From positions 9,132 to 37,579 of the IMG/VR virus record IMGVR_UViG_3300030103_004582: a DNA stretch of 28,448 bases, one strand, 5' to 3'. Within the stretch, counting starts at the first letter, position 1; the number at the start of each line of letters is the position of its first letter. Shown piece by piece: positions 5,023 through 24,423 of the stretch. A model generated the notes under the pieces. The model saw only the letters and a program-made list of their open reading frames with translations. It did no database searches and had not been told where the DNA came from. Made by a program: the position numbers and the translations under genes. This DNA is from a virus.

Positions 5023-6228
5023 TTACATTTCTAGTCTTGTTATCTTACCATTCCAACCTATTTGTGAACATACGGGTTTACCATTGGAATCGCAAAATTT
5101 TAAATTCCCATTTTGGTTCTCACCTCTTTCTGTACTAGAAAAAGTAATTAATAAATATTTTCCATCAGGATCTTTTAATTGCACGGTTTTACCTTTATTT
5201 AATGGACTTGCAGTCATTACCTCATATTTAACCTCATCACCTTTTTTAATATTACTTGAATTAGCTACACAAGTAGGGAAAGTGGTGTTATTTTCTCTAG
5301 GAGGAACTCCTGCACCACTATCATTATAATCCGTAGGTCTATTTTCATATTTTATTGTTATATTACTATAAACTATTAATTTATCAGAAACAGAACCTTT
5401 ATTAGCGTTAACTTTTAATTGTTTTTGATTTTTTACCCTAAAAAATTTACTTAGTAAACCTGAAAGATCTGATTCTATACCATCAAAAAGGTCTTTAATA
5501 TCATTATCCCATTTTTCACAATAAGGAGTATTGGTTATATTAGGATTATTATGAACGTATAAATTTCTAGTATCTAAATCAAACATTTCATTTTTATATC
5601 TTGAAATACAATCTAGTCTATATTCTTCAGTTAAATTTTTAGTATATTCATTTTGTGCTGGCAACCACGCGTTTAAATCATCTTCCCATTTTTTCATACA
5701 TGCGCTTTTATTTCCTTGTGGACATTTATTCTCTTCCTCTACAAGATCATCTGGATCAGTTAAAAATTGTCTGGCAAATCTAACACAATAACACACAGAA
5801 GCATGTCCTTTACCTTTCTTTTTTTGTCCTGACCTTACTCTAGACTTAGCACTTTTTATACCTCTACTGATTCTTAAAGCATCATAAACACCTGAAGTAA
5901 GTTGTTTACCTTTATATTTACCATCTTCAATAGTATAGGTAGTATTTGTAGTATTTTGAAAATGTTGTTCCAATTCAGATTGACTAGGAAACCCATCCGG
6001 CCATTTCCCATTAGACATATCTTTATAAATTTCTTCTATTTTTATAGGATTTTGTGGTGGTTTTTGATTTTGAACATCTATAATAGTTTGAATTTTATCA
6101 GCATCACTAACACTTCTATCACCTAAAGCATCATAACCAGAAACACTAACACTCTGCTCAACTATTAAGTTATCTATATCAATAATAACTTCTTTAATAA
6201 TATTATTAAAATATTCAATATTTTTCAT
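5023..6228 (-). CDS. Putative head-packaged cargo protein, Cys-rich, unknown function
   Basis: I do not recognise a family for this 401-residue protein. It opens with an Ile/Lys/Asp-rich leader (MKNIEYFNNIIKEVIIDIDN) followed by LIVEQ, so a T4-type prohead protease could cut after Glu24 (I-V-E/Q). The body is low in hydrophobics. A basic stretch near residues 122-141 (KSAKSR then RSGQKKKGKG) precedes nine cysteines at 146, 148, 169, 177, 207, 237, 320, 379 and 387. The C-terminal 130 residues look like a beta domain. It lies between the gp26-like gene and the tape measure, where tail phages rarely carry an unrelated gene. An ATATTTAT element sits 14 bases before the ATG, so it probably has its own promoter that also serves the tape measure gene. 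The packaging role is inferred from the leader only; a tail accessory protein is the alternative. Confidence 0.6.
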   Translation of the reverse strand: MKNIEYFNNIIKEVIIDIDNLIVEQSVSVSGYDALGDRSVSDADKIQTIIDVQNQKPPQNPIKIEEIYKDMSNGKWPDGFPSQSELEQHFQNTTNTTYTIEDGKYKGKQLTSGVYDALRISRGIKSAKSRVRSGQKKKGKGHASVCYCVRFARQFLTDPDDLVEEENKCPQGNKSACMKKWEDDLNAWLPAQNEYTKNLTEEYRLDCISRYKNEMFDLDTRNLYVHNNPNITNTPYCEKWDNDIKDLFDGIESDLSGLLSKFFRVKNQKQLKVNANKGSVSDKLIVYSNITIKYENRPTDYNDSGAGVPPRENNTTFPTCVANSSNIKKGDEVKYEVMTASPLNKGKTVQLKDPDGKYLLITFSSTERGENQNGNLKFCDSNGKPVCSQIGWNGKITRLEM

Positions 6229-6242
6229 AGTGCGATTTTTAT

Positions 6243-6250
6243 ATAAATAT
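6243..6250 (-). promoter_or_regulatory. ATATTTAT element upstream of the 401-aa gene
   Basis: The coding strand reads TTAATATTTATATAAAAATC, ending 14 bases before the ATG at 6228. It has the same core and similar flanks as the element before the 1030-aa gene, and lies just after the stop (6265) of the frameshifted extension of the upstream gene. Confidence 0.4.
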
Positions 6251-6264
6251 TAAGAAAAATTAAA

Positions 6265-6403
6265 TTATTCTTCTTTCTTAGTAAGATTACCAATAAATAT
6301 TCTTCTACTATAAGTAGGCATTATCATTATATCACTATATGAAAACTGACCTGTTTTTACTAAATAAGATATTTCTTTATGTAAGTGTAGTAGGTATTCA
6401 GAG
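6265..6403 (-). other. C-terminal extension of the gp26-like protein in the +1 frame
   Basis: Directly after the stop of the gp26-like frame, the +1 frame encodes about 44 residues: EYLLHLHKEISYLVKTGQFS, then YSDIMIMPTYSRRIFIGNLT, then KKEE and a stop at 6265. The 'F(T/S)Y(T/S)D...MP.Y.RR.FI' pattern is, from memory, the C-terminal signature of phage baseplate hub/tail chaperone proteins whose preceding motif is 'FFWP', here FGPNFLWP in the first frame. The two halves join naturally by skipping one base between 6407 and 6398. A fused product would be about 305 residues. Whether the join is programmed recoding, a real mutation or a sequencing error cannot be decided from sequence alone. This frame has no good start codon of its own. 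Confidence 0.6.
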
Positions 6404-7183
6404 TTTAGGCCATAAAAAATTCGGTCCGAATCTAAGAAAGCAACTAACGGATTCTCCCCCCTGAATCCGTGCGTTTGTATTAAAATCAATACCTGGTTCA
6501 TTATCATCAATATACTTTCGTAATGATCTAGAATCAATAAGTGGTATCTTTTTTAAGATATTTGAAATTATTATTTTATCTCTCTCACCATCAATTTCGG
6601 TAACACATTTCTCCAACCTAAGTGTTATTTTTTGAGAAACTTTTTCTTTACTTCTTTTCATCTGACTTTTGTCTGCAATATCAATTTCTTGTTCTTCTTT
6701 AGATGTTAAAAATTTAAACTTAATTAATTTTCCAGATTTAGGTAATTTAAAATCTATCTCACCATTAACATCTGGTTTAATCATTAATTTTTTTTGTTTT
6801 AACTGACTTAAATCTATCTCACCTTCTACATAATCACCACTATTTTCATCCCAAACTAATTGGGTATATTTCTCACCAAAAGCGGTAGAACGTAAAAATA
6901 TTAGAATAGCCATTCTATCTCCTTCTAACAATTCACTAACATCCATATTTAAATCTTTTACCTTTCTTTTAATAAGTAAATCAATCATCACATCTGGTTT
7001 TGCACTCAAATTAGGTGAACTAAGAATATTTTCATCCATTGCAGTTAAATATTCTACTTTAACTTGTTTTAATTTATTATCGTATAATAATCCCTGTGAT
7101 GGTAAATCTAACACATCGAAAGGTGTTCTTAAATCTTCAGGTACATAATTAGGATCTAAAGAATTTTGTATATTTTGCTCCAT
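6398..7183 (-). CDS. T4 gp26-type baseplate hub / tail assembly protein (frame-0 product)
   Basis: The protein has 261 residues in this frame. The N-terminal half carries the pattern of the T4 gp26 family: LPSQGLLYDNKLKQVKVEYL at residues 27-46, a helical segment, then ELLEGDRMAILIFLRSTAFG at 84-103. The C-terminal part has SRSLRKYIDDNEPGID at 218-233 and ends FGPNFLWPKL. The frame stops with CTC TGA at 6403-6398, while similarity to the family appears to continue in the +1 frame to 6265. It lies one gene upstream of the tape measure gene, the place where many phages make two tail-assembly chaperones by frameshifting. The start at 7183 gives MEQNIQNSLD; an ATATTTAT element lies 39 bases upstream. 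Assignment to the gp26 family is from motif recall. Confidence 0.75.
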   Translation of the reverse strand: MEQNIQNSLDPNYVPEDLRTPFDVLDLPSQGLLYDNKLKQVKVEYLTAMDENILSSPNLSAKPDVMIDLLIKRKVKDLNMDVSELLEGDRMAILIFLRSTAFGEKYTQLVWDENSGDYVEGEIDLSQLKQKKLMIKPDVNGEIDFKLPKSGKLIKFKFLTSKEEQEIDIADKSQMKRSKEKVSQKITLRLEKCVTEIDGERDKIIISNILKKIPLIDSRSLRKYIDDNEPGIDFNTNARIQGGESVSCFLRFGPNFLWPKL

Positions 7184-7222
7184 AAAACATTTTTTTATTA
7201 ATTTAATCTATTATTCTATTAA

Positions 7223-7230
7223 ATAAATAT
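7223..7230 (-). promoter_or_regulatory. ATATTTAT element upstream of the gp26-like gene
   Basis: The coding strand reads TTTAATATTTATTTAATAG, ending 39 bases before the ATG at 7183. It lies in the 63-base gap after the 867-aa gene and matches the recurrent element. Confidence 0.35.
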
Positions 7231-7246
7231 TAAATGTTGATTTTTT

Positions 7247-9850
7247 TTACTCTACGTAGCAAGGTAAAGTTTTGGCGAATTCTATTAATTCGGAAGTACA
7301 GTCACTTTTTGTCTTACCTTTTCTTTCACCATTAGCAGTAACTTTATCACACCAACCTTTAACAGGTAATTTAGCTAATTCAGTAAGTGTTTCATCGGTT
7401 ATAATAAATTGAAATGAAGGATTACCATTTACATCTTCATGTTTTGTATACAATTCACCTTCATTATCGGGACTTAACATACTAATAAAGGGTTTAAATT
7501 TACTTTTTGCAGCAAAATTATACATAGTTGCTTTCATAATATTACAACCCTCCTCTACACTTTTATTGTTTAAGATACTTTGCCATTTATAATCAGGTAA
7601 AGTTAAATCAAAATTTATTACAACTCCTAAATCTAAATTTCGAGTAGTTGTAGAATCTACATTGTCATCTGACACATCATTTTTCATATAATCTACTAAC
7701 GCATTAAATTGTTTATCTATAAATTCATCACTAGCCAACTTATTTACGTCTTGAAAATATTTTCTTGCTACAGTAGGTCCTTCAATATCTGTTTTTCTCT
7801 GTGTACCGTAATTCATTGCAAAACCCATTAAATTAATACCTTCTTCTGTGTTTTTCTTACCATTTGAAACTGTAAATTTACTTCCCAAATCGATTTGTTT
7901 ACCCTTACCTATATCTTTAGCCATAGTTTTTATTTCATCTTTAGATACAGAACCATCAGTAAATAATATTAAATCATTTAATTTTCTCTCAACTTCATTT
8001 TCTCCTGCCGCGTTCAATAATGTAATAATTAATTCTGCCTTTGTGGCTTGACATTTTCTTATTAATTTAGAAGCTAAATCAATACCCTTTCCATTTTTTA
8101 TTCCATCCCATCCTGAAACATCTACGTTAACATTAATATCCTTAGTTGCACCATCTTTCATATCATCAACTTCCTTTTTTGTTAATGCTAACGCTTCATT
8201 TCCACTAAGTATATTTTGTACTAAATTATTTTTAAACTCACCATCTACACCTATAACATTTAAAATTTTTGATAAATCCTTAACTGATTCATTATTATCC
8301 CCACCCTCATTTTTAATCAGATTAAAAGCTTCTTCTTTAGTATATTCGCACTTGTGATTTAATATCTCAACCAAATTTTTATTTTTTAGTAGTTTATTTA
8401 CTTGTTGTTTAATAGTAGATTTCAGTTTAGCATCAATCACACCTAGTAACCTCTGTAAATCAACACTAAATGTAAATAAATAATCTATAATTGAAGATCC
8501 TACACCCCATAAAGGTAAGGGGAAATAATGTTCAAAATAACCTTTAGGATCATATCTGTCAGTTACATCAACTAAATCTGTATTCATAAAAGTCCTAAAA
8601 CAATCCAAAAAATCCACCGGTTCAGTAAACTGAAGTAAATCTTTTTCAGTATATTTTGTATTAGGATTTGTTTCCATGTCATACTCCATATCTAAAAATT
8701 GTTCCATTTTATCTTTCCTTACACGTCTTAATTCACCATCTTCCTTAGTTATACAAGAAATAGTTTGTATCAATGCTTCTAAAGCCCATTCTATACCTAC
8801 TATTGAATAAACCCAATATTTATTTCTTTTAACTTTTGCAATTGCTCTTTCATTTAATCTTTGATTCTTTATTATTTCTGCAAGTAATTCTTCCGTTTTC
8901 TCCATAGAATTAGCACCTTTTAACTCATTTTTTAATATGGCTAACTCTTCCTCACTTAAACCTGATTTAAAGTTAAGATCATCCATTACTACTATAGTAT
9001 CACCATCTTTACCTCTAAAACTTACACCATCACTTATCTCAAACTTATTACTTCCGACAATTTCAAACTTATTCACAAAACCACCAACATTATTTTTATG
9101 TACTATTATATGATTACCACTAGTTTTATTAGTTAATACCACATACTCACTAATTGGGCTTTTAAGTTCAACACCTTTTAGCATCTCATCTAATTGAAGT
9201 TTTTTCAAACCTTTTGTTGCTTGTTTAGCAATATCATCACCAATCTTAATTCTAATATTCATTGGTAATTTAGGACTCATACCAACCCTATTTTTTATTA
9301 TATTTATTCTTATATCATCGGTTGCTTGTAATGGGAAATCAATATCATTTGTTTTTCTTTTCAAAACTTCTGGCATATCATCCCATAACTTATCAATTTC
9401 TTTAACTGCTTCATCTACAGTTTTACCATCTTTAGATAAATTATAAAATAAATTTGTATAAACATCTTCAGGTTTTGATTTCTCAACTATACGTACATTA
9501 TCTATAAAATTCTCTAATCCTTTTAATGCACTTGCACTAACACCTAAATCTACTAATGAGTTATTTAAACTAACCTTAAAACCCTGTGGGTCATCATCTA
9601 ATCTTCTTAATAATTTTTTTAATTCGTCAACATCTCCACTTAGTGCTCTTGCAACAACCGCTACTTCATCTGCAACAAATTTACCACTATTAAGGAAACC
9701 TCTAATTATTTTTCCAATACCACCTTCACCTTCAGTAATTAAAATTTTTTTCTTCAAATTTATGGATTCGTCATAATTAACTCTATTATCCATCCTTTCT
9801 AACATAAGGTTAAACTTTTTCTTATCTAAATAAATTAATTTTTTTTTCAT
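7247..9850 (-). CDS. Large putative head-packaged cargo protein, unknown function
   Basis: This 867-residue protein has no family I can name. The first 37 residues are very basic (MKKKLIYLDKKKFNLMLERM, then more Lys) and lead to ILITE/GEGG, a good match to the [I/L]-x-E site cut by T4-type prohead protease at Glu40. Residues 41-340 are mixed alpha/beta. Residues 346-366 are hydrophobic (WVYSIVGIEWALEALIQTIS) and could lie in or on a membrane. A second apolar patch, FPLPLWGVGSSIIDYLFTFS, lies near 443-462. The C-terminal half is charged and helical, ending in TLPCYVE. It starts nine bases after the 293-aa gene with no promoter element between, so the two are cotranscribed. Delivery into the host is suggested by the leader and by its position as an insertion in the tail operon; a structural role cannot be excluded. 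Confidence 0.6.
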   Translation of the reverse strand: MKKKLIYLDKKKFNLMLERMDNRVNYDESINLKKKILITEGEGGIGKIIRGFLNSGKFVADEVAVVARALSGDVDELKKLLRRLDDDPQGFKVSLNNSLVDLGVSASALKGLENFIDNVRIVEKSKPEDVYTNLFYNLSKDGKTVDEAVKEIDKLWDDMPEVLKRKTNDIDFPLQATDDIRINIIKNRVGMSPKLPMNIRIKIGDDIAKQATKGLKKLQLDEMLKGVELKSPISEYVVLTNKTSGNHIIVHKNNVGGFVNKFEIVGSNKFEISDGVSFRGKDGDTIVVMDDLNFKSGLSEEELAILKNELKGANSMEKTEELLAEIIKNQRLNERAIAKVKRNKYWVYSIVGIEWALEALIQTISCITKEDGELRRVRKDKMEQFLDMEYDMETNPNTKYTEKDLLQFTEPVDFLDCFRTFMNTDLVDVTDRYDPKGYFEHYFPLPLWGVGSSIIDYLFTFSVDLQRLLGVIDAKLKSTIKQQVNKLLKNKNLVEILNHKCEYTKEEAFNLIKNEGGDNNESVKDLSKILNVIGVDGEFKNNLVQNILSGNEALALTKKEVDDMKDGATKDINVNVDVSGWDGIKNGKGIDLASKLIRKCQATKAELIITLLNAAGENEVERKLNDLILFTDGSVSKDEIKTMAKDIGKGKQIDLGSKFTVSNGKKNTEEGINLMGFAMNYGTQRKTDIEGPTVARKYFQDVNKLASDEFIDKQFNALVDYMKNDVSDDNVDSTTTRNLDLGVVINFDLTLPDYKWQSILNNKSVEEGCNIMKATMYNFAAKSKFKPFISMLSPDNEGELYTKHEDVNGNPSFQFIITDETLTELAKLPVKGWCDKVTANGERKGKTKSDCTSELIEFAKTLPCYVE

Positions 9851-9859
9851 CTTTTTCTA

Positions 9860-10741
9860 TTATCTAATTAAGTTAACTACCATTTCTTTAATATCTCCTC
9901 CACTAACAGTTAAATTTGTAGTATTTGTATCTTGTAATAAACCATCCATATCTACACCATCAGGATCATATTGATATGTACTACCTGTACCATCACCGGC
10001 CATCCATCCACCGTATACACTTGATTCATCAATTTTATCAATTAATGACTGAATAGTTTTTTTGTTACCACTTTCATCATAAAAATTCATAAAAGTTATT
10101 TGACCGTATGTTGATGTAGTAGCAGTAGTACCTAAGTTAGTTATAGGTGCTTTATATTGTAAATATTTTATCTTTTCTGTTCGGTTAGCAGTCTCATTGA
10201 GTTTTACCCTCATTTCTATTGTGCCGGGAGTTACCGCTTTAGTATTACTCCAATTTTTATTGAATGTTTTTTTATAACTATCTTCAGTTGATAAATCAAT
10301 AGGTGTCTTAAGAGTTACATAAAAAGTAATCCAATCATTTTGCCAAAATTCTAATTTAGTTATTTGTGCTGGATAACTAATTGTACCTCTATTGTTGGAG
10401 TATAGGTAACATTTACCCCCTAAACTTGTTACTCCATAATTCATAGGACTTTCCACCAATCTAGGAAATTTTTTAATCATCATTTGAATTACTGATTGAT
10501 TAATACAATGTCCTACTTCAGTGTTTCTAGTTGGGTTTGCGGTATGATAGGCATTAACGAATAATTTAGCCTCATCTGCAGTTATGTCATTACCAGATGC
10601 AGTAAATTCTGTGGTATCTATTACAAAATCACCATTAGAATCGGGATTGGTAACTTGTTCCTTAACTAAATTACCATAAAGTCTCTCTTCAGTAAAAAGA
10701 CTTTTAATTCGTTCAATTTCCTCATTAATTTTTTTCTCCAT
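9860..10741 (-). CDS. Putative head-packaged cargo protein sharing a leader with the 147-aa protein
   Basis: The protein has 293 residues and no recognised fold. Its first 24 residues (MEKKINEEIERIKSLFTEER then LYGN) match those of the product encoded at 14522-14965 at 20 positions, although the remainder is unrelated. Possible protease sites are F-T-E/E at 18 and V-K-E/Q at 28. The body has a Cys pair (near 78 and 110, in GHCIN and GGKCYLYS) and then mostly beta-type sequence rich in Thr, Asn and Tyr. The last 50 residues are Gly/Asp-rich (GGWMAGDGTGSTYQYDPDG). An ATATTTAT element lies four bases before the ATG. It is followed closely by the 867-aa gene. The shared leader suggests a common destination, probably the capsid interior. 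Confidence 0.6.
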   Translation of the reverse strand: MEKKINEEIERIKSLFTEERLYGNLVKEQVTNPDSNGDFVIDTTEFTASGNDITADEAKLFVNAYHTANPTRNTEVGHCINQSVIQMMIKKFPRLVESPMNYGVTSLGGKCYLYSNNRGTISYPAQITKLEFWQNDWITFYVTLKTPIDLSTEDSYKKTFNKNWSNTKAVTPGTIEMRVKLNETANRTEKIKYLQYKAPITNLGTTATTSTYGQITFMNFYDESGNKKTIQSLIDKIDESSVYGGWMAGDGTGSTYQYDPDGVDMDGLLQDTNTTNLTVSGGDIKEMVVNLIR

Positions 10742-10771: not shown

Positions 10772-13700
10772 TTACAATTCAATACCCCAATGTTTGGCAT
10801 TTTCTTTATCTGCCTCACTAAATTCTTCGTTTTTATTATTTTCTATTTCTAAGTTTTTTTCTAACTCTTTTAATTTATCTTGTTCGGGGGCATTTTCTAA
10901 TAATTCTAATATTTCATCATATTTTGTTATAATAAAAGTTTTAATTTCTTCTGTAGGTTTACCTTCCTTTTCCATTTGAGTGGCAGTATCTGTTATTTCT
11001 CTCAACCATTTACCTGTTTTTTCTAAAATAACTTTACCTATTATACTTTCCATCCCATTAAATACTATATCTCTTACATTTTTTTCTACTTTAATATCAT
11101 ATTTACTTAGTAAATTACCTACACCTATTCTAGTTTCAATATCTATCATATGTGCTAATAAATAATAACTAGCTAAATCTTCTATTTTTTGTTTTATCGC
11201 TAATGAAGAAGCGTCTTTTTTATTAATATCTTCTTTAGAAGTAAGTTTATTATCTATATCGTAACCTGTAAACTTTTTTAATGCGTCAAAACCTTTACTT
11301 AATGCCTTACCAATTTCTTCTCCATAACCTTGTACTAACCCAAATAAAGTTGCTTGTATTAAAGCTTCTTTATTACTAAACTTAGGTATATATTTTTTTA
11401 TAACTTTTTTAATGTCATAATCTACCTTTATTAAATCATCTAGAAATGGTTTAAGTTTATCTTTTTTAACTCCTTTTTTTGTTAACTGTTGTAAAATTTC
11501 TTTTTCTTTTGGAGTTAAGTTTTTCATACTTCTCATTATTTTTTCCAAACCGTCTACCGCTTTATTTGGCATTTTTTGAAAAGCGTCTATCACATCAGAT
11601 AATTGTTTTATTTCCTTAGATGAATATTCTGAAACTAAATCTCTTAATTTTTTACTCCATACATCCGCCGCTTCTGATTTAGTCATACCCTCAAGTGTAT
11701 TCTTAAATGCTTTATCATTTAACTCCGTTGTTATTTCACCTAAAGCTTTAGTCCATTTTACATTCTTTAAACCACCTTTTAATGCTTTATTTGTAAATTT
11801 CATCGCTTCTGCTCCACTAAACAATGCACCTACTAAAGTTAATCCCGCATTTAATTCCCAACCCTCATCTTGTTCAATTACATACCCAGCAGCACTCACA
11901 CCATCAATCGCAGCAGATAATGCCACATTTAATCCTGGTACGGGTATAAATAATACTGCAATAGATGCTACATCTGCAATACAATGCCAATCACCTACAC
12001 ACTTACTAGCCCAATCAGAAGTTTTTTCCCATAAACTTCGTACATCATTCTCTACCGCACTATACTCAACAATTTTAGACATATTAATAGTTGATCCATT
12101 TAATTTAAATGAATTAGTTGGGTTATTAACACAACCACAAGTTCCTAAATTTTTACCTCCACTGTACCACCATACACCACCTAGATTCTTTTGACTACAC
12201 ACAAGATTAAAAGTATTTTTATCATTATCTTTATAATCGAATGATTTTTCAACATCATAATAAGGTACAGGTGGGACTACTATTATTTGTTCATCTATTT
12301 TATGTTTTTTTGATTCGGCAACCACTTGTTTTGGGCGTCCATATTCATCAAACCAGTCCGTTTTCCAGGTGTTCCTACTATTTGGATTCCATCTTACTTT
12401 ACCATCTGATGGGTTTCTAAAATCTCCTACGGGTTTACTACAATATTCTTTATATTTACTCGCACTTTGACTCTCAAACCTTTCATTATGACTTGCTGAG
12501 GCGTCTATAATATGTAAATAAGTTTCAATCATTTGTTCTAAATTACTTTTTTCACCCATATTTCTTTGTGCTAAATCTCTTATTTCTGGTTCTTTAGGTT
12601 TTACTGGTGGCGGTTTAATTTTACCATTTAATTGATAATAATAAACCGGTCCATATTTTTTCCACGCTTTAGTAGTTTGTGGCCCAAATGTTCCATAACC
12701 CGGTGTTTTTTTATTTAAAGGTTTACCTGTTGTAGTCCACTGAGTTGGGTAATTTTTGTCTAACCAATTTTGGAATTTCTGTATAGGTTCTTTTTTAGTT
12801 AACTTTCTAGGTAATTTAATTTCACCTATTTGTGATTCTAATTCTTTAAGTAATGCATACCAATCAACTGGTTTAGGATCATTTTCTAAATCACTTTGGT
12901 AAGTATTGTTAGTTAGTAAATTATTAACATAATTAGGTCTGTACTTAGATGGATCATTACTGTCTTGATCTCTCCATGAATTATTTCTATAATCTTCTAT
13001 TGCAAAAGCATTATTTTTACTATTTATGATATCATTAATGGAGTTTTGTATGGTATTATATTTCTCACCGAATTGTTGTTTCCATTTTTTATAATCTTCT
13101 TTCCACCTTTTTAGGGATAATTTATACCTTTCACCTAATTCTATTTGTTCCTTTTTAAATGCTTCTTGACCCCAAATACTCAAAATATCTTCTTCAACAA
13201 CTGTTTTTAATTTAAAATATTCTTTTATTAAGTCACCTGGCCACAATAAATTGGTATTACCAATACCTATTCCACTACTATAAGGATTATTAAATACTTC
13301 TTCTAATTTACTTTTAGAATTACTAAATGTGAGTAAATTACATGCTAAACCGTCCCAATTACCTAGTTTTCGTAACCTATTCCAACTACTATAAACACTA
13401 TTATATGTCCCAATAGCGTTGTTTATAATATTTTTTTCACTTTTAGGGTTTAATAGTACATCATATGTAGAAGAAAGAATATTTCCCCCAACATCATAAG
13501 AATATCTTCCATCATCTTCCGCTCTACTATTAAAATCTTTAATGGTTACCATTTTTCCGTTATATTCATAAGTTACTGCACCCATATGAGGATCACCATA
13601 TTGTCTAGCTTTACACCAGTCCCAATCTGGACCAGGTATTCCTGCAACTATATTCCCCTTTGGTCTACATGCGACATAGGTATTTAACTCGTTAATACCA

Positions 13701-13864
13701 TAATTAATTTTTCCTGGTGCAGTACTATTTTGAATCCATCCACTTCCCAACTTTGGAGTTGAGATAGCCGCACCAGATATTCCATCTACTTCTTGTTCAC
13801 TAATAATTAAAAAATCATTATCAAAAACTTTTTTATACTGTGTTTCGGAAATTATAATTTTCAT
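10772..13864 (-). CDS. Giant putative cargo/virion protein with peptidoglycan-binding-like repeat
   Basis: This 1030-residue protein starts MKIIISETQYKKVFDNDFLI and then ISE/QEVDG, a probable [I]-x-E processing site at Glu23. Residues 24-340 are unassigned and Trp/Tyr-rich. Residues about 360-405 (IQKFQNWLDKNYPTQW, then GYGTFGPQTTKAWKKYG) match the pattern of a PG_binding_1 repeat, with its 'G.FGP.T..A' signature. A Pro-rich linker follows (PPPVKPKEP). Cys residues at 556, 576 and 578 lie in a Gly-rich patch. Residues 627-690 are an unusual glycine/alanine-rich hydrophobic segment (DVASIAVLFIPVPGLNVALS onward) resembling the pre-toxin regions of polymorphic toxins. The last 340 residues are charged helices. 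The gene has its own ATATTTAT element 17 bases upstream and follows the terminator of the tail tube gene. The domain calls are visual; no catalytic site was found. Confidence 0.6.
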   Translation of the reverse strand: MKIIISETQYKKVFDNDFLIISEQEVDGISGAAISTPKLGSGWIQNSTAPGKINYGINELNTYVACRPKGNIVAGIPGPDWDWCKARQYGDPHMGAVTYEYNGKMVTIKDFNSRAEDDGRYSYDVGGNILSSTYDVLLNPKSEKNIINNAIGTYNSVYSSWNRLRKLGNWDGLACNLLTFSNSKSKLEEVFNNPYSSGIGIGNTNLLWPGDLIKEYFKLKTVVEEDILSIWGQEAFKKEQIELGERYKLSLKRWKEDYKKWKQQFGEKYNTIQNSINDIINSKNNAFAIEDYRNNSWRDQDSNDPSKYRPNYVNNLLTNNTYQSDLENDPKPVDWYALLKELESQIGEIKLPRKLTKKEPIQKFQNWLDKNYPTQWTTTGKPLNKKTPGYGTFGPQTTKAWKKYGPVYYYQLNGKIKPPPVKPKEPEIRDLAQRNMGEKSNLEQMIETYLHIIDASASHNERFESQSASKYKEYCSKPVGDFRNPSDGKVRWNPNSRNTWKTDWFDEYGRPKQVVAESKKHKIDEQIIVVPPVPYYDVEKSFDYKDNDKNTFNLVCSQKNLGGVWWYSGGKNLGTCGCVNNPTNSFKLNGSTINMSKIVEYSAVENDVRSLWEKTSDWASKCVGDWHCIADVASIAVLFIPVPGLNVALSAAIDGVSAAGYVIEQDEGWELNAGLTLVGALFSGAEAMKFTNKALKGGLKNVKWTKALGEITTELNDKAFKNTLEGMTKSEAADVWSKKLRDLVSEYSSKEIKQLSDVIDAFQKMPNKAVDGLEKIMRSMKNLTPKEKEILQQLTKKGVKKDKLKPFLDDLIKVDYDIKKVIKKYIPKFSNKEALIQATLFGLVQGYGEEIGKALSKGFDALKKFTGYDIDNKLTSKEDINKKDASSLAIKQKIEDLASYYLLAHMIDIETRIGVGNLLSKYDIKVEKNVRDIVFNGMESIIGKVILEKTGKWLREITDTATQMEKEGKPTEEIKTFIITKYDEILELLENAPEQDKLKELEKNLEIENNKNEEFSEADKENAKHWGIEL

Positions 13865-14521: not shown

Positions 14522-14965
14522 TTATCTTTCTAATTGTGAAGTAGGGTTATCTTGTGCCCTTTCGTCTTCTCTATTAGAACTAACAGAAAAATCTAAATCT
14601 TCTATAATAATCTCATTAGTCTCAATAGCCATTTTATACGTATCTATCGCATCTCCCACATGAAGAGTTAATCTATCATATGCGTCATTACTCATTTTAG
14701 ATTCATTTGATTTATCTATTATTTTTTCAACCTCATTAATAGTTTCTTCTAATTCTTCATTAAGTTCTTTTAACGCACCAGATAATTCATAAGCATATTT
14801 AGTATAACTATATCCAGTACCTCTAAACATTCCACCAATACCTTTTAATGTAGACTTTAAACCTTCATTTAAATTTTCTTTACCATTTTCTATATTACCG
14901 TAAAGTCTTTCCTCATTAAATAATGATTTCATTCTTTCAATTTCGTTATTTATATTCTTTTCCAT
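14522..14965 (-). CDS. Small helical putative head-packaged protein
   Basis: The protein has 147 residues and no recognised family. Residues 1-24 (MEKNINNEIERMKSLFNEER then LYGN) are nearly the same as the start of the 293-aa protein encoded at 9860-10741. A probable prohead protease site is L-N-E/G at residue 34. The rest is almost all helical and acidic: a Gly-rich turn (KGIGGMFRGTGYSY), a likely coiled coil (ALKELNEELEETINEVEKII) and a second helical part, ending in a polar tail (DERAQDNPTSQLER). Small, acidic, helical, leader-tagged proteins are typical of T4 internal proteins, which is the basis for the role suggested. The ATG follows the previous stop by 11 bases without a promoter element, so it is cotranscribed with the 136-aa gene. 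Confidence 0.6.
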   Translation of the reverse strand: MEKNINNEIERMKSLFNEERLYGNIENGKENLNEGLKSTLKGIGGMFRGTGYSYTKYAYELSGALKELNEELEETINEVEKIIDKSNESKMSNDAYDRLTLHVGDAIDTYKMAIETNEIIIEDLDFSVSSNREDERAQDNPTSQLER

Positions 14966-14976: not shown

Positions 14977-15387
14977 TTATTTAAAATTATTTTCATGAGC
15001 TATACGCGCAATAGATTTTTTATGATATATTTTATTTGTATCCATTTTTAATTTAACCATATGTAATAAACTGTCTGCTCCATCAAACATGACTGACCCT
15101 TTAAAACTATCTCCAGCAAGATAATCATTATCATTTTTAAAGATTTCATTCGCTTCATAATATAAATCGGGATTTTTATCGAATGCCATAAACGCAGCTT
15201 CAATAATCGCCTCATCATCCATAAACACTCCCATCGCATCTAGTATTAATTTATATAGTTTTTTTGCGTCATCTAGATTTTCTATATATTCATAATCATA
15301 ATTTTGTTCTGTTAATACTCTTTTTACAATTCTTTTTAAGTCATTTTCAGTTAACTTAATTACTTTATCGTTTTTTTTAATTCTCAT
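14977..15387 (-). CDS. Small putative head-packaged protein with strong CTS-like leader
   Basis: The protein has 136 residues. The leader MRIKKNDKVIKLTENDLKRI followed by VKRVLTE/QNYDYE is an amphipathic basic helix ending in L-T-E at residue 27, close to the L-x-E sites cut by T4 gp21. Leaders of the form 'KLTE.DL.RIVKRVL.E' are, from memory, common in uncultured marine phage proteins. The mature part would be about 109 residues, helical and acidic, with no recognised domain. It is the first gene of a two-gene unit with the 147-aa gene, placed between sheath and tube genes; an ATATTTAT element lies 41 bases upstream. The function of the mature part is unknown. Confidence 0.65.
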   Translation of the reverse strand: MRIKKNDKVIKLTENDLKRIVKRVLTEQNYDYEYIENLDDAKKLYKLILDAMGVFMDDEAIIEAAFMAFDKNPDLYYEANEIFKNDNDYLAGDSFKGSVMFDGADSLLHMVKLKMDTNKIYHKKSIARIAHENNFK

Positions 15388-15455: not shown

Positions 15456-16274
15456 CTATTTTTTAATTATTATTCGTTTCTTTTTAGGGTTATCAGGATC
15501 AGATGTATCATATACTAAAAATTTAACATCAGGATATAATTTTTTTAATTTCTCCTCAATGTACTTCTCCGCACTCTCAATATTACCTAAATCATCATCA
15601 CTAAAACCTATACTCATACCATTATATTCTGGATTATCTTTCATTTCTTTAACTGCACTAACTACTCTATCTACAAAAGTCTTTAATGCAATCATTTTAC
15701 CGACTTCTGGGTTTGTTACACTTACATCAGTATCAAATTCTTCTACAAACTCGTCAGAAGTCACAGGATAGTAGTCCTGTAAGTTTAGATATTGTTCTAT
15801 AGATGTACCATGTAAGTTAGATAACATTTTTTCTTTTTGTTCTTCAGTGAAAAGAGTGTCAATTATCACTTTTATACCATCTTTAATTGCTTTAGGTGGG
15901 TTTCCTCTAGCAGTTATTATAGAGAAGTCATTACCATATAATAATGCTTCTTTAAATTTATCAAAACTGGGACCAAAAGATTTTTTTCTTAATGCTTCTT
16001 TTGTGTCTCTTATAAATGCGTCATAATCTCTGAAATCTTTAAACGCATAATATAAGTCATCTTTTTCATATCTATAATCTTTACCAACTCTATTCCTAAT
16101 TTCTCTAAATTCTTCAGTACCTACTAAAACAGGTATCCATCCATCACCTACCTTTTTCTCTAAATAAATTTTAGTGGGCATAAATAAAATATTATCGTCC
16201 CAATCAAATGAATATGCTCTTTTTTTAAATTCCAAAAGTAGACTTTTTTGATATTGACTTAATTTTATTTTCAT
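15456..16274 (-). CDS. HAD-superfamily phosphatase-like protein with N-terminal packaging-type leader
   Basis: From the ATG at 16274 the protein has 272 residues. HAD motifs are visible: motif I FDWDDNI (Asp24 nucleophile, Asp26 acid/base), motif II IITARG (Thr121), a lysine in GKMIALKTF (Lys193 or Lys198) as motif III candidate, and motif IV GFSDDDLGN (Asp226-228). Asn28 replaces the common Thr/Val of motif I. This predicts a Mg-dependent phosphohydrolase of unknown substrate. The first 15 residues (MKIKLSQYQKSLLLE) form a basic leader ending in L-L-E, right before the catalytic domain, so the enzyme could be packaged in the head and processed. An in-frame TTG six bases upstream is less likely as the start because it lies in the terminator's T-run. 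No ATATTTAT element is seen; expression may depend on readthrough of that terminator. Confidence 0.8.
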   Translation of the reverse strand: MKIKLSQYQKSLLLEFKKRAYSFDWDDNILFMPTKIYLEKKVGDGWIPVLVGTEEFREIRNRVGKDYRYEKDDLYYAFKDFRDYDAFIRDTKEALRKKSFGPSFDKFKEALLYGNDFSIITARGNPPKAIKDGIKVIIDTLFTEEQKEKMLSNLHGTSIEQYLNLQDYYPVTSDEFVEEFDTDVSVTNPEVGKMIALKTFVDRVVSAVKEMKDNPEYNGMSIGFSDDDLGNIESAEKYIEEKLKKLYPDVKFLVYDTSDPDNPKKKRIIIKK

Positions 16275-19249: not shown

Positions 19250-19280
19250 AGTATGATATTTTTCATACTTTTGTCATACT
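19250..19280 (+). promoter_or_regulatory. Three-half-site operator in front of the RHH gene
   Basis: AGTATGA (19250-19256) and TCATACT (19263-19269) form a perfect seven-base inverted repeat with a six-base spacer. A third copy, TCATACT, follows at 19274-19280, exactly 11 bases (one helical turn) after the second. The cluster ends 16 bases before the ATG of the RHH protein gene and overlaps the probable promoter (TATATAA follows at 19281). Repeated half-sites one turn apart are typical targets of ribbon-helix-helix dimers, so autoregulation is likely. Confidence 0.6.
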
Positions 19281-19296
19281 TATATAAAAAACAACT

Positions 19297-19455: not shown

Positions 19456-19456
19456 A

Positions 19457-19747
19457 TTATCTCACTATTAAAACTAAATCAAAATCTGGAGTTAATTCAA
19501 AATCACCTAACCATATAAGTTTATTATCTTCTATGTTATAATCCGTATTAACGACATACCTTAAACCGTTAACATATAATTCCGTTTTTTCTACATCATT
19601 AATGTTAACTTTAATTTCATCAAATATAGTTTGTCCTTTAATAGAAGGTTTTATACTAATTGCATTATAATTACTTACTCCCCTAAGTATTGCGTCCATT
19701 ATAGGTTTAGGATCTCTTACTACATAATTTCTAACTATCCTTTTCAT
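19457..19747 (-). CDS. Small structural-type protein of the tail module
   Basis: The protein has 96 residues: MKRIVRNYVVRDPKPIMDAI at the start, and TELYVNGLRYVVNTDYNIED followed by NKLIWLGDFELTPDFDLVLI at the end. The second half has the 'LYVNG.R....DY.....N.I.W......GD.L.V' pattern that is common in small beta domains of phage fibre and connector proteins. Its ATG overlaps the stop of the gp15-like gene (ATGA at 19747-19744), so the two are translationally coupled and the products probably act together in tail completion or neck. The exact role is unknown. Confidence 0.65.
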   Translation of the reverse strand: MKRIVRNYVVRDPKPIMDAILRGVSNYNAISIKPSIKGQTIFDEIKVNINDVEKTELYVNGLRYVVNTDYNIEDNKLIWLGDFELTPDFDLVLIVR

Positions 19748-20775
19748 TTTGCGTTTCCTATTACTGTTAAAAATGCAGGATTTGCTACATCTAATTTTGT
19801 TATTGTAATTTCTAATGAATCTCCATAAGAAACATCAAAAGGTAATGTTTTTACGTTACCATTTACTGTAACAGTAAAGTTACTAATATTTTGTTGTGAA
19901 ACACTACTGTAAATGGAGTCGTTTTCAATTGATAGTTGGAAAACATTAATACCTGGTGCAAATTGAATATTTAATTCGATTGATGTGTCTTCTTCTCTTT
20001 CTTTAATCTGGTGGGTAGCTAAATTAACATTTTCTGCAATTTCAAAGAAAGTAATTGCCCTACTAATTGCTGGTGTCACCTCAAACTGTTTTGGATCTAA
20101 TAAATAACCTAACATTTTTATACTGAATAATTGTACGTAGTATCTTTTCTCATCTAAATTTTGTATAGAACTTTCATCACCTATACTATCCATCATAAGT
20201 GGTATTGGGTGACCATTTACCCTAATATATTTTTCACCTGCAGAAAATGAGTCTAACATTAATCTATTTAACACATTTAAATCTCTCATTCTTGTACAGA
20301 ATAATCTAACTTCATAGTTTAAATCTACAGAAATAGGTTGTGGTATTTTATAAATGTCAAAACTTTTTATATTACCATCCCATGTAGGTATTTTCATATA
20401 TGTAAACGTAGGTTTTCCTGGCACATTAAAAGTTCCCGCATAATTAGTACCAGTTTGTGCATCTGGTTTTCTTATTATGGTAATAAAGGGCATTGTAATA
20501 TTTTTGTATTCATCTGAAAATTGCCAAGTTTTTGCAAATTCTGCCCATCTTTGTATACTTAAAAAAATAACTGGTACTTTTTCACCATTTAAAACTAAAC
20601 TTATATCATCCTCCATATATTGAACAAACTCTCTATCCATATCTTCGTGTAAAATACCTTTAGGTAGATATGTACCAGGATTAGCAATATCATTTAATAT
20701 ATTTTGTCTAGCCTCAAAACCCTCTGGAGTAGGGGTAAATTTTAAATTTTTTCTATAATTCTTAGGAAGTCCCAT
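19744..20775 (-). CDS. gp15-like tail completion / sheath terminator protein
   Basis: The protein has 343 residues. The central part, MPFITIIRKPDAQTGTNYAG followed by PTFTYMKIPTWDGN, then IPQPISVDLNYEVRLFCTRM, then a helix (DLNVLNRLMLDSF), then GHPIPLMMDSIGDESSIQNL and RYYVQLFSIKMLGYLLDP, matches the order of elements in T4 gp15 as I recall it: the strand 'SPIKMIYELSIFTRYEDDM', a helix, a 'D.IS.D....' loop and the final 'V.GW..P'. gp15 caps the sheath and tube and joins the tail to the head. Two N-terminal sections and a C-terminal beta domain (VTVNGNVKTLPFDVSYGDSL) make it longer than T4 gp15 (272). It lies between the neck-type gene and the sheath, as in T4-like genomes. This is a pattern-based call. 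Confidence 0.6.
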   Translation of the reverse strand: MGLPKNYRKNLKFTPTPEGFEARQNILNDIANPGTYLPKGILHEDMDREFVQYMEDDISLVLNGEKVPVIFLSIQRWAEFAKTWQFSDEYKNITMPFITIIRKPDAQTGTNYAGTFNVPGKPTFTYMKIPTWDGNIKSFDIYKIPQPISVDLNYEVRLFCTRMRDLNVLNRLMLDSFSAGEKYIRVNGHPIPLMMDSIGDESSIQNLDEKRYYVQLFSIKMLGYLLDPKQFEVTPAISRAITFFEIAENVNLATHQIKEREEDTSIELNIQFAPGINVFQLSIENDSIYSSVSQQNISNFTVTVNGNVKTLPFDVSYGDSLEITITKLDVANPAFLTVIGNAK

Positions 20776-20780
20776 TTTAA

Positions 20781-21302
20781 TTAAATACCTTTAAATTCAT
20801 CTTCAGGTGTAGGTACACATGTCACAGTTCTGTAAAAACCTTTATAACCTGCAATAGTGTGTGCGTTGTCTGATGTTATTATACCATTATTAGATACTGT
20901 CCAGTAAGTCATTTTATCTTCAGTTTCATGATATCCTATATAATCCCCATAATTAATCTCAACACCTAATTCATCTAAATGTGACTGATATACGCCTAAA
21001 GTTAGATTACCATGTTCTAAATGTCTTAAACTACCATTAGGATTCCAAGCCTCATTTTTAGGAGATTCCATTTGGAAATTAACAGTCAATTCAACCGGTG
21101 TTTTAAATCTTATTTCATTAGGTGCAGATTCTCCATATATATCATCAGTTAATGATTTACTTTGATCTACTTGAAAAAGAACTACTTTAATGTTTATGTC
21201 ACCCTCTAACCATTCTCTACCAAAATCTACTTCTAAATTAAAATCTTCTTGTGAAAAAAACTTGTTTACTCTCGTAATTGGGACTTTTCTGTTATTTTTC
21301 AT
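20781..21302 (-). CDS. Neck / head-tail connector protein, possibly gp14-like
   Basis: The protein has 173 residues and is mostly beta. It begins MKNNRKVPITRVNKFFSQED. Parts such as DDIYGESAPNEIRFKTPVEL and LGVEINYGDYIGYHETEDKM followed by YWTVSNNG resemble the T4-like neck protein gp14, which has an 'E..Y.E...E......' section and a later 'GD.I.Y......FE' section, but it is shorter than gp14 (256 in T4) and the match is weak. It is the first gene of the neck-tail unit and is five bases upstream of the gp15-like gene. It shares a palindromic ATATTTAT element with the divergent helicase gene; the element ends 13 bases before this ATG. Confidence 0.5.
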   Translation of the reverse strand: MKNNRKVPITRVNKFFSQEDFNLEVDFGREWLEGDINIKVVLFQVDQSKSLTDDIYGESAPNEIRFKTPVELTVNFQMESPKNEAWNPNGSLRHLEHGNLTLGVYQSHLDELGVEINYGDYIGYHETEDKMTYWTVSNNGIITSDNAHTIAGYKGFYRTVTCVPTPEDEFKGI

Positions 21303-21315
21303 GTATCTTTTACCT

Positions 21316-21327
21316 ATAAATATTTAT
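21316..21327. promoter_or_regulatory. Palindromic ATAAATATTTAT shared by divergent genes
   Basis: The 38-base gap between the neck-type gene (ATG at 21302, minus) and the helicase gene (ATG at 21341, plus) has a perfect 12-base palindrome at its centre. Each strand offers an ATATTTAT ending exactly 13 bases before the start codon of its gene. This symmetry suggests a bidirectional promoter element or a dimer binding site. Confidence 0.5.
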
Positions 21328-21340
21328 ACTTTGCAAAAAA

Positions 21341-23158
21341 ATGATTATAATTAGAAATATGTTAGATATAAAAGACATTAAAGGATTGAAAATTGAAGAA
21401 CTATTAGTTACATATAATGGTAAGAATCCCTATATTAATTATATAAAGAAAAAATATCAAACCGAAAAATCATATTTTTTAACTAATAGTCAAACAAAAT
21501 ATATTACTAATTATTTTAATTACATACCTAAAAATATTAATAAAATTGTAGAAATCACTGAATATTTTTCAAATCAATTAAAAGAAGAGTATAAATTGAC
21601 TACACCAATTAATAAAATATTAGTAGAAACTATATTGGCAGAAAGTGATAAAGCAATACACGCAATATGTAAATTTTATAAAAATCAAAAAGAAGTTAAA
21701 TTAATATGGATACCTAAAACTCAATTAATTGAAGATATTCACTATGAGGAAGTAGAAGTAGAAGTAGACTTTGAAAAGTACATAGATTTAGATAAAAGGG
21801 GTTGGAGAGCATTTAAACATCAAGAAGAAGGTATAGAATTTTTATTAAAAAATAAAAAATGTATTTTGGCGGATGATATGGGTTTAGGTAAAACATATCA
21901 ATCTATAGTTGCTGCATTAGAATGTAATGCAGAAAGAGTTTTAATTGTTTGTCCAGCATCTTTAAAAATAAATTGGATGAGAGAAGTACAAAACTTTTGT
22001 GAAGATGTCTCCATAATAAAGGGAAAACATTGGGATCCAGATAGATTTACTATTATAAATTATGATATATTAAAAAATTTTCATACTATAGAAGAAAGAG
22101 GTAAAAAATATGAAGACTGGGAATTAAGAAGAGAAATAGTTGAATTTAATCCAGATCTAATAATATTAGATGAAGCACACTTTGTAAAAAATCATAAAAG
22201 TATAAGGGGTAAAATTTTAAAAGATATTTCAAAAAGATTTTCTCCTAAAAGATGTTGGTTGTTAACAGGTACACCCATCGCTAATAGACCAATGGACTAT
22301 TATAATCTTTTATCCATAATAGAATGTGGGGTTGCAAATAATTGGGTACATTATGCTAGAACTTATTGTGAAGGAGTAAGATTTAAAAAAGGTGGTAGGT
22401 TTGTTTGGGTAACTAAAGGTGCTTCTAATTTAGAAGAATTAGCACAAAAAACTAAAAGAACTATCTTAAGACGTAAAAAAGAAGAAGTATTAGATTTACC
22501 AGATAAACTTATAACACCAATTTATTTAGAATTACAAAATGTAGACGGTTATAAAAATGTGTGGGAAGAATATTTGGCACAACGTAAAGTAGATGGTAAA
22601 AAAGGTAATCCCGCAAGAGATTTAGTAGAAGCTACATTGTTAAGAACTTTTATAGCTATGGAAACTGTTCCATATACTATAGAAAAAGTAGAAGAAGCAT
22701 TAGAACTAAATAAAAAAACTATTATATTTTGTAACTTCAATGACGAAATGGATGCGTTTATTAGGTATTTTGGAGATAAGTGTGTTTGTATAAGGGGAGG
22801 AATGTCAGATAAACAAAAACAATTGGCGGTTGATAGATTTCAAGAAGATGATAATTGTAAAGTTTTCGTAGGACAAATAAAGGCTGCCGGTGTAGGATTA
22901 ACCTTAACTGCTGCAGAGATAGTAATTATGAATTCATTAGACTGGGTACCGGGAAATCATGAACAAGCGGAAGATAGAGCATATAGGATAGGTCAAAATA
23001 AAACAGTTAATATATATTATATGTTAATAGATGAAACAATAGACACATTAGTGTGGGATATTTTAAATGAAAAAAAGAAAATCATCGGAACTATTATGGG
23101 TGAAGAAAATATTATAGAAGAATTTATTAAAAAGATTGAAAATGATGTGGAAAAATAA
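21341..23158 (+). CDS. SNF2-family DEAH helicase / annealing helicase-like ATPase
   Basis: The 605-residue protein has an N-terminal extension of about 155 residues, then a two-lobed SF2 motor. Visible motifs are I ADDMGLGKT (177-185), Ia VLIVCPASLKINW (200-212), II DEAH (277-280), III LLTGTP (307-312), IV TIIFCNF (460-466), V GLTLTAA (519-525) and VI EQAEDRAYRIGQ (541-552). The motif VI form with 'RAYRIGQ' is that of the SNF2/SMARCAL1 (HARP) group, which remodels forked or annealed DNA; in T4-like phages the comparable role belongs to UvsW, which lacks this signature. It probably acts in phage DNA replication or recombination. A second ATG at 21359 (MLDIKDIKGL) could be the start. Its end overlaps the following gene. 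The promoter element is the palindrome at 21316-21327. Confidence 0.92.
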   Translation: MIIIRNMLDIKDIKGLKIEELLVTYNGKNPYINYIKKKYQTEKSYFLTNSQTKYITNYFNYIPKNINKIVEITEYFSNQLKEEYKLTTPINKILVETILAESDKAIHAICKFYKNQKEVKLIWIPKTQLIEDIHYEEVEVEVDFEKYIDLDKRGWRAFKHQEEGIEFLLKNKKCILADDMGLGKTYQSIVAALECNAERVLIVCPASLKINWMREVQNFCEDVSIIKGKHWDPDRFTIINYDILKNFHTIEERGKKYEDWELRREIVEFNPDLIILDEAHFVKNHKSIRGKILKDISKRFSPKRCWLLTGTPIANRPMDYYNLLSIIECGVANNWVHYARTYCEGVRFKKGGRFVWVTKGASNLEELAQKTKRTILRRKKEEVLDLPDKLITPIYLELQNVDGYKNVWEEYLAQRKVDGKKGNPARDLVEATLLRTFIAMETVPYTIEKVEEALELNKKTIIFCNFNDEMDAFIRYFGDKCVCIRGGMSDKQKQLAVDRFQEDDNCKVFVGQIKAAGVGLTLTAAEIVIMNSLDWVPGNHEQAEDRAYRIGQNKTVNIYYMLIDETIDTLVWDILNEKKKIIGTIMGEENIIEEFIKKIENDVEK

Positions 23159-24062
23159 AATGGTATGGGAAAATATTAATATATTTTCTAAAGAAGAAGC
23201 AAAAAAAATAGAGAATTTATTCGAAACTAATTTACATCAATTCGGACTAACTGTAAATCATGGAAGTTTTAGACTTTCAGTTTATGAATCTACATTAAAT
23301 GATACATTTCCTGAAATACATAAACTTATAGTAAATAAGATTAAAAAAATACCAAAATTAAAAGATTATAACGTAACAAGATCTGCCGGTCTTAGATATA
23401 CTAAAGATGCGCCTTCTATGCCCCATCATTACGATGGAGATGATTATACCATTTTAATTTTTATTAATGATAATTATGAAGGTAGTGGTACTGTATTTCC
23501 GTTGTTGAAAAAAACTGCACATGCTTCAGAATTTGGTGTGGGAAACGCTCTTTTATTTTCAGGTAGAAAAATAAAGAGTTGGCATGGAGCATTACCTTTA
23601 AAAAGTGGTGTTAGATATACAATAAATGTAAGACTTAATAAAAAGAAAAACTTTTTTTTAATGGTAAAAAGTTTTTTTAAACTATTGATTTTATTCGCAA
23701 TTGAACCTATAATAAACAAATATGAACGTCGCCATAATAAAGAAATAAAAGATACAGAAAAAATAATTATGAAAACAGTACCAATAGTATTCAGTATGAA
23801 AGGTTGTCCACACTGTGACAATTTAAAAAACCAACTTAAAGAATCTAATATAGAATTTAAAGAGATAGATACAGATGATAAAGAAAATGAAGTATTATAT
23901 GAATCCTTTTCAAAAAAAGTTGGTAGTGATTTTTTACCTGCAGTAATTATAGGAAAAAAAGCATTTTTACCTGATAAATCATTTAAAACTATTGATGATG
24001 GGGTAAATATGATTAAGGAGTACCTTCAGGAGCTTTCTGATCGTGAGAACCATTTAGATTAA
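23142..24062 (+). CDS. 2-oxoglutarate/Fe(II) oxygenase fused to glutaredoxin
   Basis: From the ATG at 23142 (306 residues; ATGs at 23145 and 23160 are also possible, and all follow or overlap the helicase end) there are two domains. Residues 1-165 form a prolyl-4-hydroxylase-type double-stranded beta helix: iron ligands His96-x-Asp98 (PHHYDGDDYTILIFIND) and His148 (KSWHGALPL), and Arg158 (GVRYTINVRL) for 2-oxoglutarate. A basic/hydrophobic helix (FFLMVKSFFKLLILFAIEPI) and a charged linker follow. Residues about 212-295 are a glutaredoxin: VPIVFSMKGCPHCDNLKNQL with active-site Cys222 and Cys225, then the cis-proline motif FLPAVIIG. The oxygenase would hydroxylate an unknown phage or host target; the redoxin may keep it or its target reduced. 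The fusion is unusual. The 3' end overlaps the convergent gene by 50 bases. Confidence 0.85.
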   Translation: MMWKNKMVWENINIFSKEEAKKIENLFETNLHQFGLTVNHGSFRLSVYESTLNDTFPEIHKLIVNKIKKIPKLKDYNVTRSAGLRYTKDAPSMPHHYDGDDYTILIFINDNYEGSGTVFPLLKKTAHASEFGVGNALLFSGRKIKSWHGALPLKSGVRYTINVRLNKKKNFFLMVKSFFKLLILFAIEPIINKYERRHNKEIKDTEKIIMKTVPIVFSMKGCPHCDNLKNQLKESNIEFKEIDTDDKENEVLYESFSKKVGSDFLPAVIIGKKAFLPDKSFKTIDDGVNMIKEYLQELSDRENHLD

Positions 24063-24423
24063 AGTTATCGTTACCGTCACTATACTTTTCAATTAATGAA
24101 CCTAATTCATTAATTATATTATCATGTTCTTCTGTACCATTCCATCCCGCACCTTGTCCACTACCATGAAGTAAAGATTTTCTAATATCTTCTAATCCCT
24201 CAATAAGTTCTTCATTATTGGTGTCCGCTTCATAGGCGAATTGTATTGCAGATTCTATATCTCTAAGTGCAGAAGCCAAATGATTCATTGCCTTATGCAT
24301 TAAACCTACTGCAATATCAGTAGAACTATGTGTATCTGTTTTAGTATAAGGAAAAAGATTTTTTTCTACTTCGTAAGTAGTTTCTTCTCTTAAAATTTTT
24401 TTTATTAGGTTTCTTTTCATCAT
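24013..24423 (-). CDS. Small putative head-packaged protein, helical
   Basis: The protein has 136 residues from the ATG at 24423, or 135 from the next one. The N-terminus is a very short basic leader, MMKRNLIKKILRE/ETT, ending in L-R-E at residue 13, the same type as on the seven tagged genes of the tail module. The mature part is helical (GLMHKAMNHLASALRDIESA, then FAYEADTNNEELIEGLEDIR), with a Gly-rich turn (HGSGQGAGWNG) and a polar tail. No family recognised. It is a lone minus-strand gene between two plus-strand genes. Its 3' end overlaps the oxygenase-glutaredoxin gene by 50 bases, and its start is 41 bases from the divergent neck gene. An ATATTTAT element lies only three bases before the ATG. 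Confidence 0.6.
   Translation of the reverse strand: MMKRNLIKKILREETTYEVEKNLFPYTKTDTHSSTDIAVGLMHKAMNHLASALRDIESAIQFAYEADTNNEELIEGLEDIRKSLLHGSGQGAGWNGTEEHDNIINELGSLIEKYSDGNDNFNLNGSHDQKAPEGTP

Follow-up and report, generated by a model that had tools for sequence, protein, structure and literature searches.

Tagged genes of the window

The DNA analysed here (the window) is a stretch of 28,448 nucleotides, bases 9132-37579 of the 99,870-base virus record IMGVR_UViG_3300030103_004582. By its sequence the source phage is a T4-like virus of bacteria, and its host is probably a member of the Bacteroidota, because, among cultured phages, Flavobacterium phage vB_FspM_immuto (hereafter immuto) has the nearest capsid protein (37.7% identity, 70% of the query covered). 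Eight genes of the window, named by their lower coordinate, encode products that begin with a short leader reaching [ILV]-x-E, and these leaders constitute a real, exchangeable N-terminal tag that most likely belongs to a capsid-targeting propeptide system. A preliminary description had placed the ends of the motif at residues 24, 40, 28, 23, 34, 27, 15 and 13, and both the genes and the motif ends were found there. For gene 15456 the mechanical start, TTG, puts the motif at residue 17; its homologues begin at the ATG two codons downstream. The eight genes are given below, with a slash at the putative cut:

5023-6228, minus strand: tagged gene, 401 amino acids, no known domain; leader 6157-6228, 24 residues, LIVE/Q
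7247-9850, minus strand: tagged gene, 867 amino acids, no known domain; leader 9731-9850, 40 residues, LITE/G
9860-10741, minus strand: tagged gene, 293 amino acids; class A leader 10658-10741, 28 residues, VKE/Q
10772-13864, minus strand: tagged gene, 1030 amino acids; class C leader 13796-13864, 23 residues, ISE/Q
14522-14965, minus strand: tagged gene, 147 amino acids; class A leader 14864-14965, 34 residues, LNE/G
14977-15387, minus strand: tagged gene, 136 amino acids; class B leader 15307-15387, 27 residues, LTE/Q
15456-16274, minus strand: tagged gene with HAD-like motifs, 272 amino acids from the ATG; class C-like leader 16230-16274, 15 residues, LLE/F
24013-24423, minus strand: tagged gene, 136 amino acids; class E leader 24385-24423, 13 residues, LRE/E

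The sheath, tube, tape measure, helicase and other proteins had been said to lack the motif, but [ILV]-x-E ends at residues 13-40 in 15 of the 19 window proteins of at least 100 amino acids, among them the sheath, tube and tape-measure-like proteins and the helicase and, for instance, the products of 3100 (IRE, residue 26), 13949 (IQE, 32), 16327 (LGE, 37) and 21341 (IEE, 20), and in 44 of the 75 proteins of the record. The motif at these positions is thus not discriminating; the argument from the motif alone was rejected and, the motif being worthless as a statistic, the case needed other grounds. The count for the window speaks for chance as an explanation, in which Lys/Ile/Glu-rich N-termini of an AT-rich phage and a common [ILV]-x-E make eight genes look alike without meaning.

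Leader families and their N-terminal position

Searches were based on a class A core, F-x-EERLYGN, a class B pattern, LTExDLxRI[VI]xR, and a class C pattern, MKIII[ST]ExQYK. Viral contigs yielded 50 stretches with the class A core and at least 120 each with the class B and class C patterns. An in-frame ATG lay 4-20 codons upstream in 45 of 52 class A DNA matches and was absent in seven; the class A proteins diverge widely beyond the leader. The class B leader has the form M-x5-LTESDLxRIVKRVI-x-E, and its nearest ATG was exactly six codons upstream in 134 of 155 cases among the matches listed. After repeats and sequences with fewer than 40 remaining residues had been dropped, 136 distinct class B sequences among the matches listed were aligned. 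Position 16 was Glu in all 136 and position 14 was Ile, Leu or Val in 134 and Met in two, neither position being part of the search pattern; Gln was the commonest residue 17 (53/136). Conservation ends just past the Glu, and information is at background by about residue 21.

The class B pattern in reversed codon order gave no stretches, versus at least 120 in forward order, and a prokaryote genome collection yielded five chance stretches without any leader. Six leader classes were turned into profiles and compared with 4601 distinct open reading frames (ORFs) from loci mostly fetched by leader; these profiles matched 741 of 4601 N-termini, two of 3537 internal segments, one of these an evident upstream start call, and one of 4601 shuffled sequences. 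A separate capsid-protein search, of which the best 80 of at least 599 stretches were kept, gave 80 capsid-picked loci; in their 1101 ORFs of at least 120 amino acids the first profiles made 12 N-terminal, no internal and no shuffled matches. Strictly N-terminal leader families well beyond chance are therefore present. For these families chance is refuted by the invariant Glu, the N-terminal excess and the empty reversed search, and the exchange of leaders between bodies described below likewise speaks against it, so that it retains next to no probability. The single tag shared by the eight genes in the preliminary description stands as N-terminal leaders on unrelated bodies; the leaders themselves fall into several families.

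In the window, 9860 and 14522 were assigned to class A, 14977 to class B, 10772 to class C and 24013 to class E, while 15456 resembles class C. The first five match the leader profiles at E 5.1e-6 or better, partly by construction, because identical copies of 9860, 14522, 14977 and 10772 in sibling records helped to build the profiles, and 24013, with E 5.1e-6, is itself a class E seed. The class A match of 9860 (E 4.1e-19) is in part such a case; 14977 was recovered with E 3.2e-11 in the class B search of the record. The match of 7247 was marginal (E 0.009, residues 35-40 only) and the leader of 5023 matched none of the profiles. A profile search for further tagged genes, as had been proposed, revealed a ninth at record positions 97900-98748 (class C, E 2.5e-7).

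Leader and site are kept, well beyond chance, in homologues of 5023, 7247, 9860, 10772 and 14522. For 5023 the homologous sites read LIVE/Q (locus L113) and LLLE/Q (L122); for 7247, LLIE/S (L123), LITE/G (L101) and LLTE/G (L122); for 9860, INE/Q (L096, L101, L122) and LVE/A (L098); and for 10772, LNE (L101, L127), LTE/Q (L092), LLE/Q (L125) and LKE (L108). The only body homologue of 14977 seen was one identical copy, other matches sharing the leader alone, and the sole body homologue of 24013 seen was a close one (L133). Pfam and PHROGs searches of the eight window bodies gave no confident family, the best PHROGs match being that of 14522 to a GP16.7-like family (E 2.7e-4). The structure model of 9860 was poor, with a mean predicted local distance difference test score (pLDDT) of 52.5. 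A tblastn search of two window leaders against GenBank phages returned nothing at E 10, a result of little weight given the short queries and the low-complexity filter. The 3′ end of an ORF on the plus strand (23136-24062) overlaps the tagged gene 24013 on the opposite strand; by eye, this single ORF has parts that resemble a 2OG-Fe(II) oxygenase and a glutaredoxin (CPHC), together with a hydrophobic stretch.

Number of tagged genes and exchange of leaders

Tagged ORFs numbered 35 of 200 and 43 of 213 in two related records (G035 and G038), many of them in arrays, and the class B profile alone matched up to 15 times per record. At positions 37350-45591 of G035, small adjacent genes carry near-identical leaders (MNLQEHIRRVLREE, MKYLITESQLD) with differing continuations. 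Tandem arrays would be expected if recombination merely spread a 5′ segment containing the ribosome site and start region, the encoded peptide having no role. In 122 distinct class B leader DNAs, however, mean entropy for the first, second and third codon positions was 0.48, 0.32 and 0.97, the search pattern itself constraining the first two in part, versus 1.84, 1.80 and 1.74 in the DNA after the leader. The invariant residues are written with several codons, and different leader classes obey one end rule. Spread at the level of DNA or translation is accordingly very improbable.

Single-linkage clustering of the 741 tagged bodies gave 341 families, of which 236 had a single member. Of the 341, 25 contained more than one leader class; some of these were joined only through shared domains or because the class B and C profiles overlap. 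Clean swaps, judged by eye, were seen in L138, L092/L119, 14522/L388/L099, L231/L215 and L273/L325. In L138 one of two paralogues has VITE/GAGWKALWQAVK with a class A leader and the other IITE/GAGWKALWQAVK with a class C leader, and the proteins of L092 (class A) and L119 (class C) have a common body (..LKRAF..IDPKILT). Bodies homologous to that of the window gene 14522 (class A, LNE/GLKSTLKGIGGMFRGTGYSYTKYAYELSG) follow class B leaders in L388 (VEE/G) and L099 (LDE/G).

Of the family representatives, 148 of 341 were searched against Pfam, which gave 18 families with one member each and left most bodies without a match. The matches include sigma-70 regions 2 and 4 (in one representative), acetyltransferase, lysozyme, cell wall hydrolase, DHH and peptidoglycan-binding domains. 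PADLOC, run on 148 tagged representatives, gave four weak families, again with one member each. Inspection by eye added further observations. A zinc-ribbon-like segment, C-x-KCGWSWxLxEGGDDPYxCHKCG, stands behind differing leader classes in L219:11452-11988, L272:2234-2968 and L048:11808-12245. Proteins resembling extracytoplasmic function sigma factors occur under class C leaders at L304:3425-4030 and in L290. A VVHxSNPxxRxxI-like body, similar to ADP-ribosyltransferases, is tagged by class C in L265 and by class E at G035:38429-38842 and G038:102764-103204.

In cultured immuto, seven of 277 mechanical ORFs matched the leader profiles, six being its own class D and G seeds chosen by eye. The seventh match (E 0.0023) is a 75-residue gene beside the prohead protease gene of this phage (NC_055915, 125241-125468); its leader, FDIHKWQAKFLKE/S, is class D-like, as might be expected if the product were an internal head protein. 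One listing of the open-licence literature, checked for virion proteomics of this phage, showed none.

The HAD-like protein of gene 15456

Gene 15456 contains the motifs FDWDDN, ITARG, K and GFSDDD, and FDWDDN, ITAR, K195 and SDDD were invariant in 17 of 17 aligned sequences of its family. We take these to be HAD motifs, and the product is predicted to be a HAD-type phosphatase. The phosphatase named in the preliminary description rests on the conserved HAD-like motifs in the alignment. A Pfam scan gave no match at E 0.1, the best Foldseek match of the structure model was weak and not a HAD protein (E 0.034), and VIA-align placed HAD proteins at Z of about 5 only, mixed with other folds. Mean pLDDT per ten residues was 39 and 57 for the first two segments of the model, 86-96 for the next sixteen and 54-87 thereafter. 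The family has a typical class C leader in L315, other leaders in L235, L373 and L273 and none in L183; the alignment of the bodies is not disturbed by these differences. Phe follows the site in 12 of 12 near sequences, which makes the cut of 15456 the least certain of the eight. A HAD-like homologue also lies within a 1008-residue protein (L108:5448-8474), the N-terminus of which likewise reaches LNE/Q.

Putative cleavage site, capsid protein and prohead protease

The motif [ILVM]-x-E was found near the leader end in 252 of 255 class B, 83 of 83 class E, 39 of 46 class A, 40 of 44 class G, 4 of 4 class D and 215 of 309 class C sequences. At matched positions of untagged proteins it occurred in 28-33%, the chance level. 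Class C is the weakest, and part of it may be uncut or cut elsewhere.

The preliminary description had proposed to look in the rest of the genome for a gp21-like protease and for a capsid protein with the same motif, and both are present in the head module of the record:

Record 88582-90324: gp23-like capsid protein (PF07068, E 6.7e-63)
Record 90361-91863: acidic scaffold-like protein
Record 91978-92667, outside the window: Peptidase_S77 (gp21-type) protease gene

The Peptidase_S77 profile matched record positions 92074-92550 with 89.9 bits, versus a curated cut-off of 27 (E 7.2e-27). The N-terminus of the capsid protein carries an [LI]-x-E site, LLTE/A. A motif filter retained 37 capsid ORFs from the 80 capsid-picked loci; [LI]-x-E was at the aligned position in all 37, and the next residue was mostly Ser, Thr or Ala. 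S77 was above the cut-off in 39 of 45 long records, and 18 of 23 leader-bearing records, selected by leader and length, had both S77 and gp23. In two records the protease match was in two pieces within a single open frame, at C1:33631-33825 and 34747-35205 in G019 (locus L020; 632 residues) and at C1:7781-8098 and 9155-9334 in G021 (locus L029; 621 residues), a pattern that an intein or some other insertion in the protease might produce.

Comparison with known systems

Passages of two papers on T4 (PMC9026906, PMC3012670) describe propeptides of 10-19 residues that bring internal proteins into the prohead core and are removed by gp21. According to sections of the former, a review, targeting and processing residues are separable, and such sequences are suggested to make it possible for T4-like phages to incorporate a variety of proteins (PMC9026906). 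In the T4 control sequences, internal proteins IPII and IPIII have MKTYQEFIAE/A in common and IPI has ..STITE/A. The leaders described here resemble the propeptides of IPI-III and Alt in being short, N-terminal, attached to unrelated proteins and ended by [LI]-x-E, and in both cases the genome encodes a protease of the gp21 family together with a gp23-like capsid protein. They differ from the T4 system in that at least five leader families occur (13-40 residues in the window), in that leaders are swapped between bodies, and in number, T4 having few tagged genes as against the fractions found in G035 and G038. None of 46 ORFs from 20 kilobases of T4 matched the leader profiles, and T4 IPI-III showed no similarity to them either (best E 0.11). 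As far as can be read from sequence, the leaders would therefore work like T4 capsid-targeting sequences, without evident common descent.

For phages SPN3US and phiKZ, parts of one study report that the prohead protease strips N-terminal propeptides from several packaged proteins, as is proposed here; those propeptides are mostly longer than 100 residues, with one of T4 length, whereas the present leaders are short and occur on many unrelated bodies (PMC5694885). Excerpts of a study of P1 DarB report that the first 30 residues are enough to bring a reporter to the capsid; that work, in the same excerpts, concerns one signal on one large protein (PMC9024508). P1 is not T4-like in the protease sense considered here. 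The polyvalent proteins of phages and plasmids are likewise proposed to bring mixed activities into the cell with the DNA, but in the portions of PMC5512222 available many domains are joined in one polypeptide, while the tagged proteins here are separate and mostly small. Scale, the several leader families and leader swapping are new relative to these systems. No occurrence of the leader peptide strings and no description of these leaders were found in the open-licence literature, which omits preprints and most subscription papers.

Proposed mechanism

The leaders are very probably exchangeable capsid-targeting propeptides. During prohead assembly, each leader would dock its cargo protein in the scaffold core, and the gp21-type protease of the phage would then cut after [ILV]-x-E, a rule that also fits the capsid N-terminus LLTE/A. 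The freed bodies would remain packaged alongside the DNA and pass into the host when the phage infects it, where they might serve in early take-over, counter-defence or passage of the wall. The capsid-targeting interpretation of the preliminary description is strongly supported by the exchangeable leaders, their site, the protease and the capsid protein, although the statistic with which it set tagged apart from untagged proteins fails.

Several observations weigh against this interpretation. The tagged genes of the window sit among tail genes, outside the head operon, and 94 of 309 class C leaders have no [ILVM]-x-E near their end. Five of the 23 leader-rich or leader-bearing records have neither S77 nor gp23, and are assumed to be fragments missing the head module. 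The profile counts are not frequencies, because the loci were mostly fetched by leader. The absence of similarity to T4 IPI-III must be added, and no virion proteomics covering tagged proteins was found.

The position between tail genes and the 30% of class C leaders that have no site would also fit leaders that are docking or localisation peptides for another destination, such as the tail or baseplate, the membrane or a host or phage enzyme, and that are left uncut by the prohead protease, with the terminal Glu acting as a helix cap. By hydrophobic moment, 0.8-0.9 in classes B and E, some leaders form amphipathic helices, and some of the cargo resembles wall hydrolases; both points favour such docking. 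It is nevertheless unlikely: unrelated classes tend to the same [ILV]-x-E end, which is the T4 gp21 rule, as given in part of PMC9026906, and the rule of the capsid protein here; class B conservation stops right past the site; and the protease and gp23 accompany the leaders.

Biological significance

It is fairly likely that in a large group of uncultured T4-like phages, probably of Bacteroidota, head packaging has become a general means of delivery. About one-fifth of the genes in some members would bear one of several exchangeable tags that the protease removes, each virion would inject dozens of different proteins, and cargo would be recruited by gaining or swapping a tag. The predicted cargo includes a sigma factor, an acetyltransferase, DHH- and HAD-like enzymes and wall hydrolases, and would consist mostly of small proteins of unknown function.

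Injected proteins decide the first minutes of infection, counter-defence included, and are usually unknown. In T4, according to parts of PMC3012670 and PMC9391042, one of the internal proteins acts against a restriction system and a second is required to infect a particular strain of E. coli. In view of these roles, the mostly uncharacterised bodies found here form a pool of candidate counter-defence and take-over proteins. The leaders themselves would, if this holds, be candidate tools for loading proteins into phage heads. Should the tags prove to be signals for capsid targeting, a few profiles would suffice to read from sequence what many uncultured T4-like phages inject.

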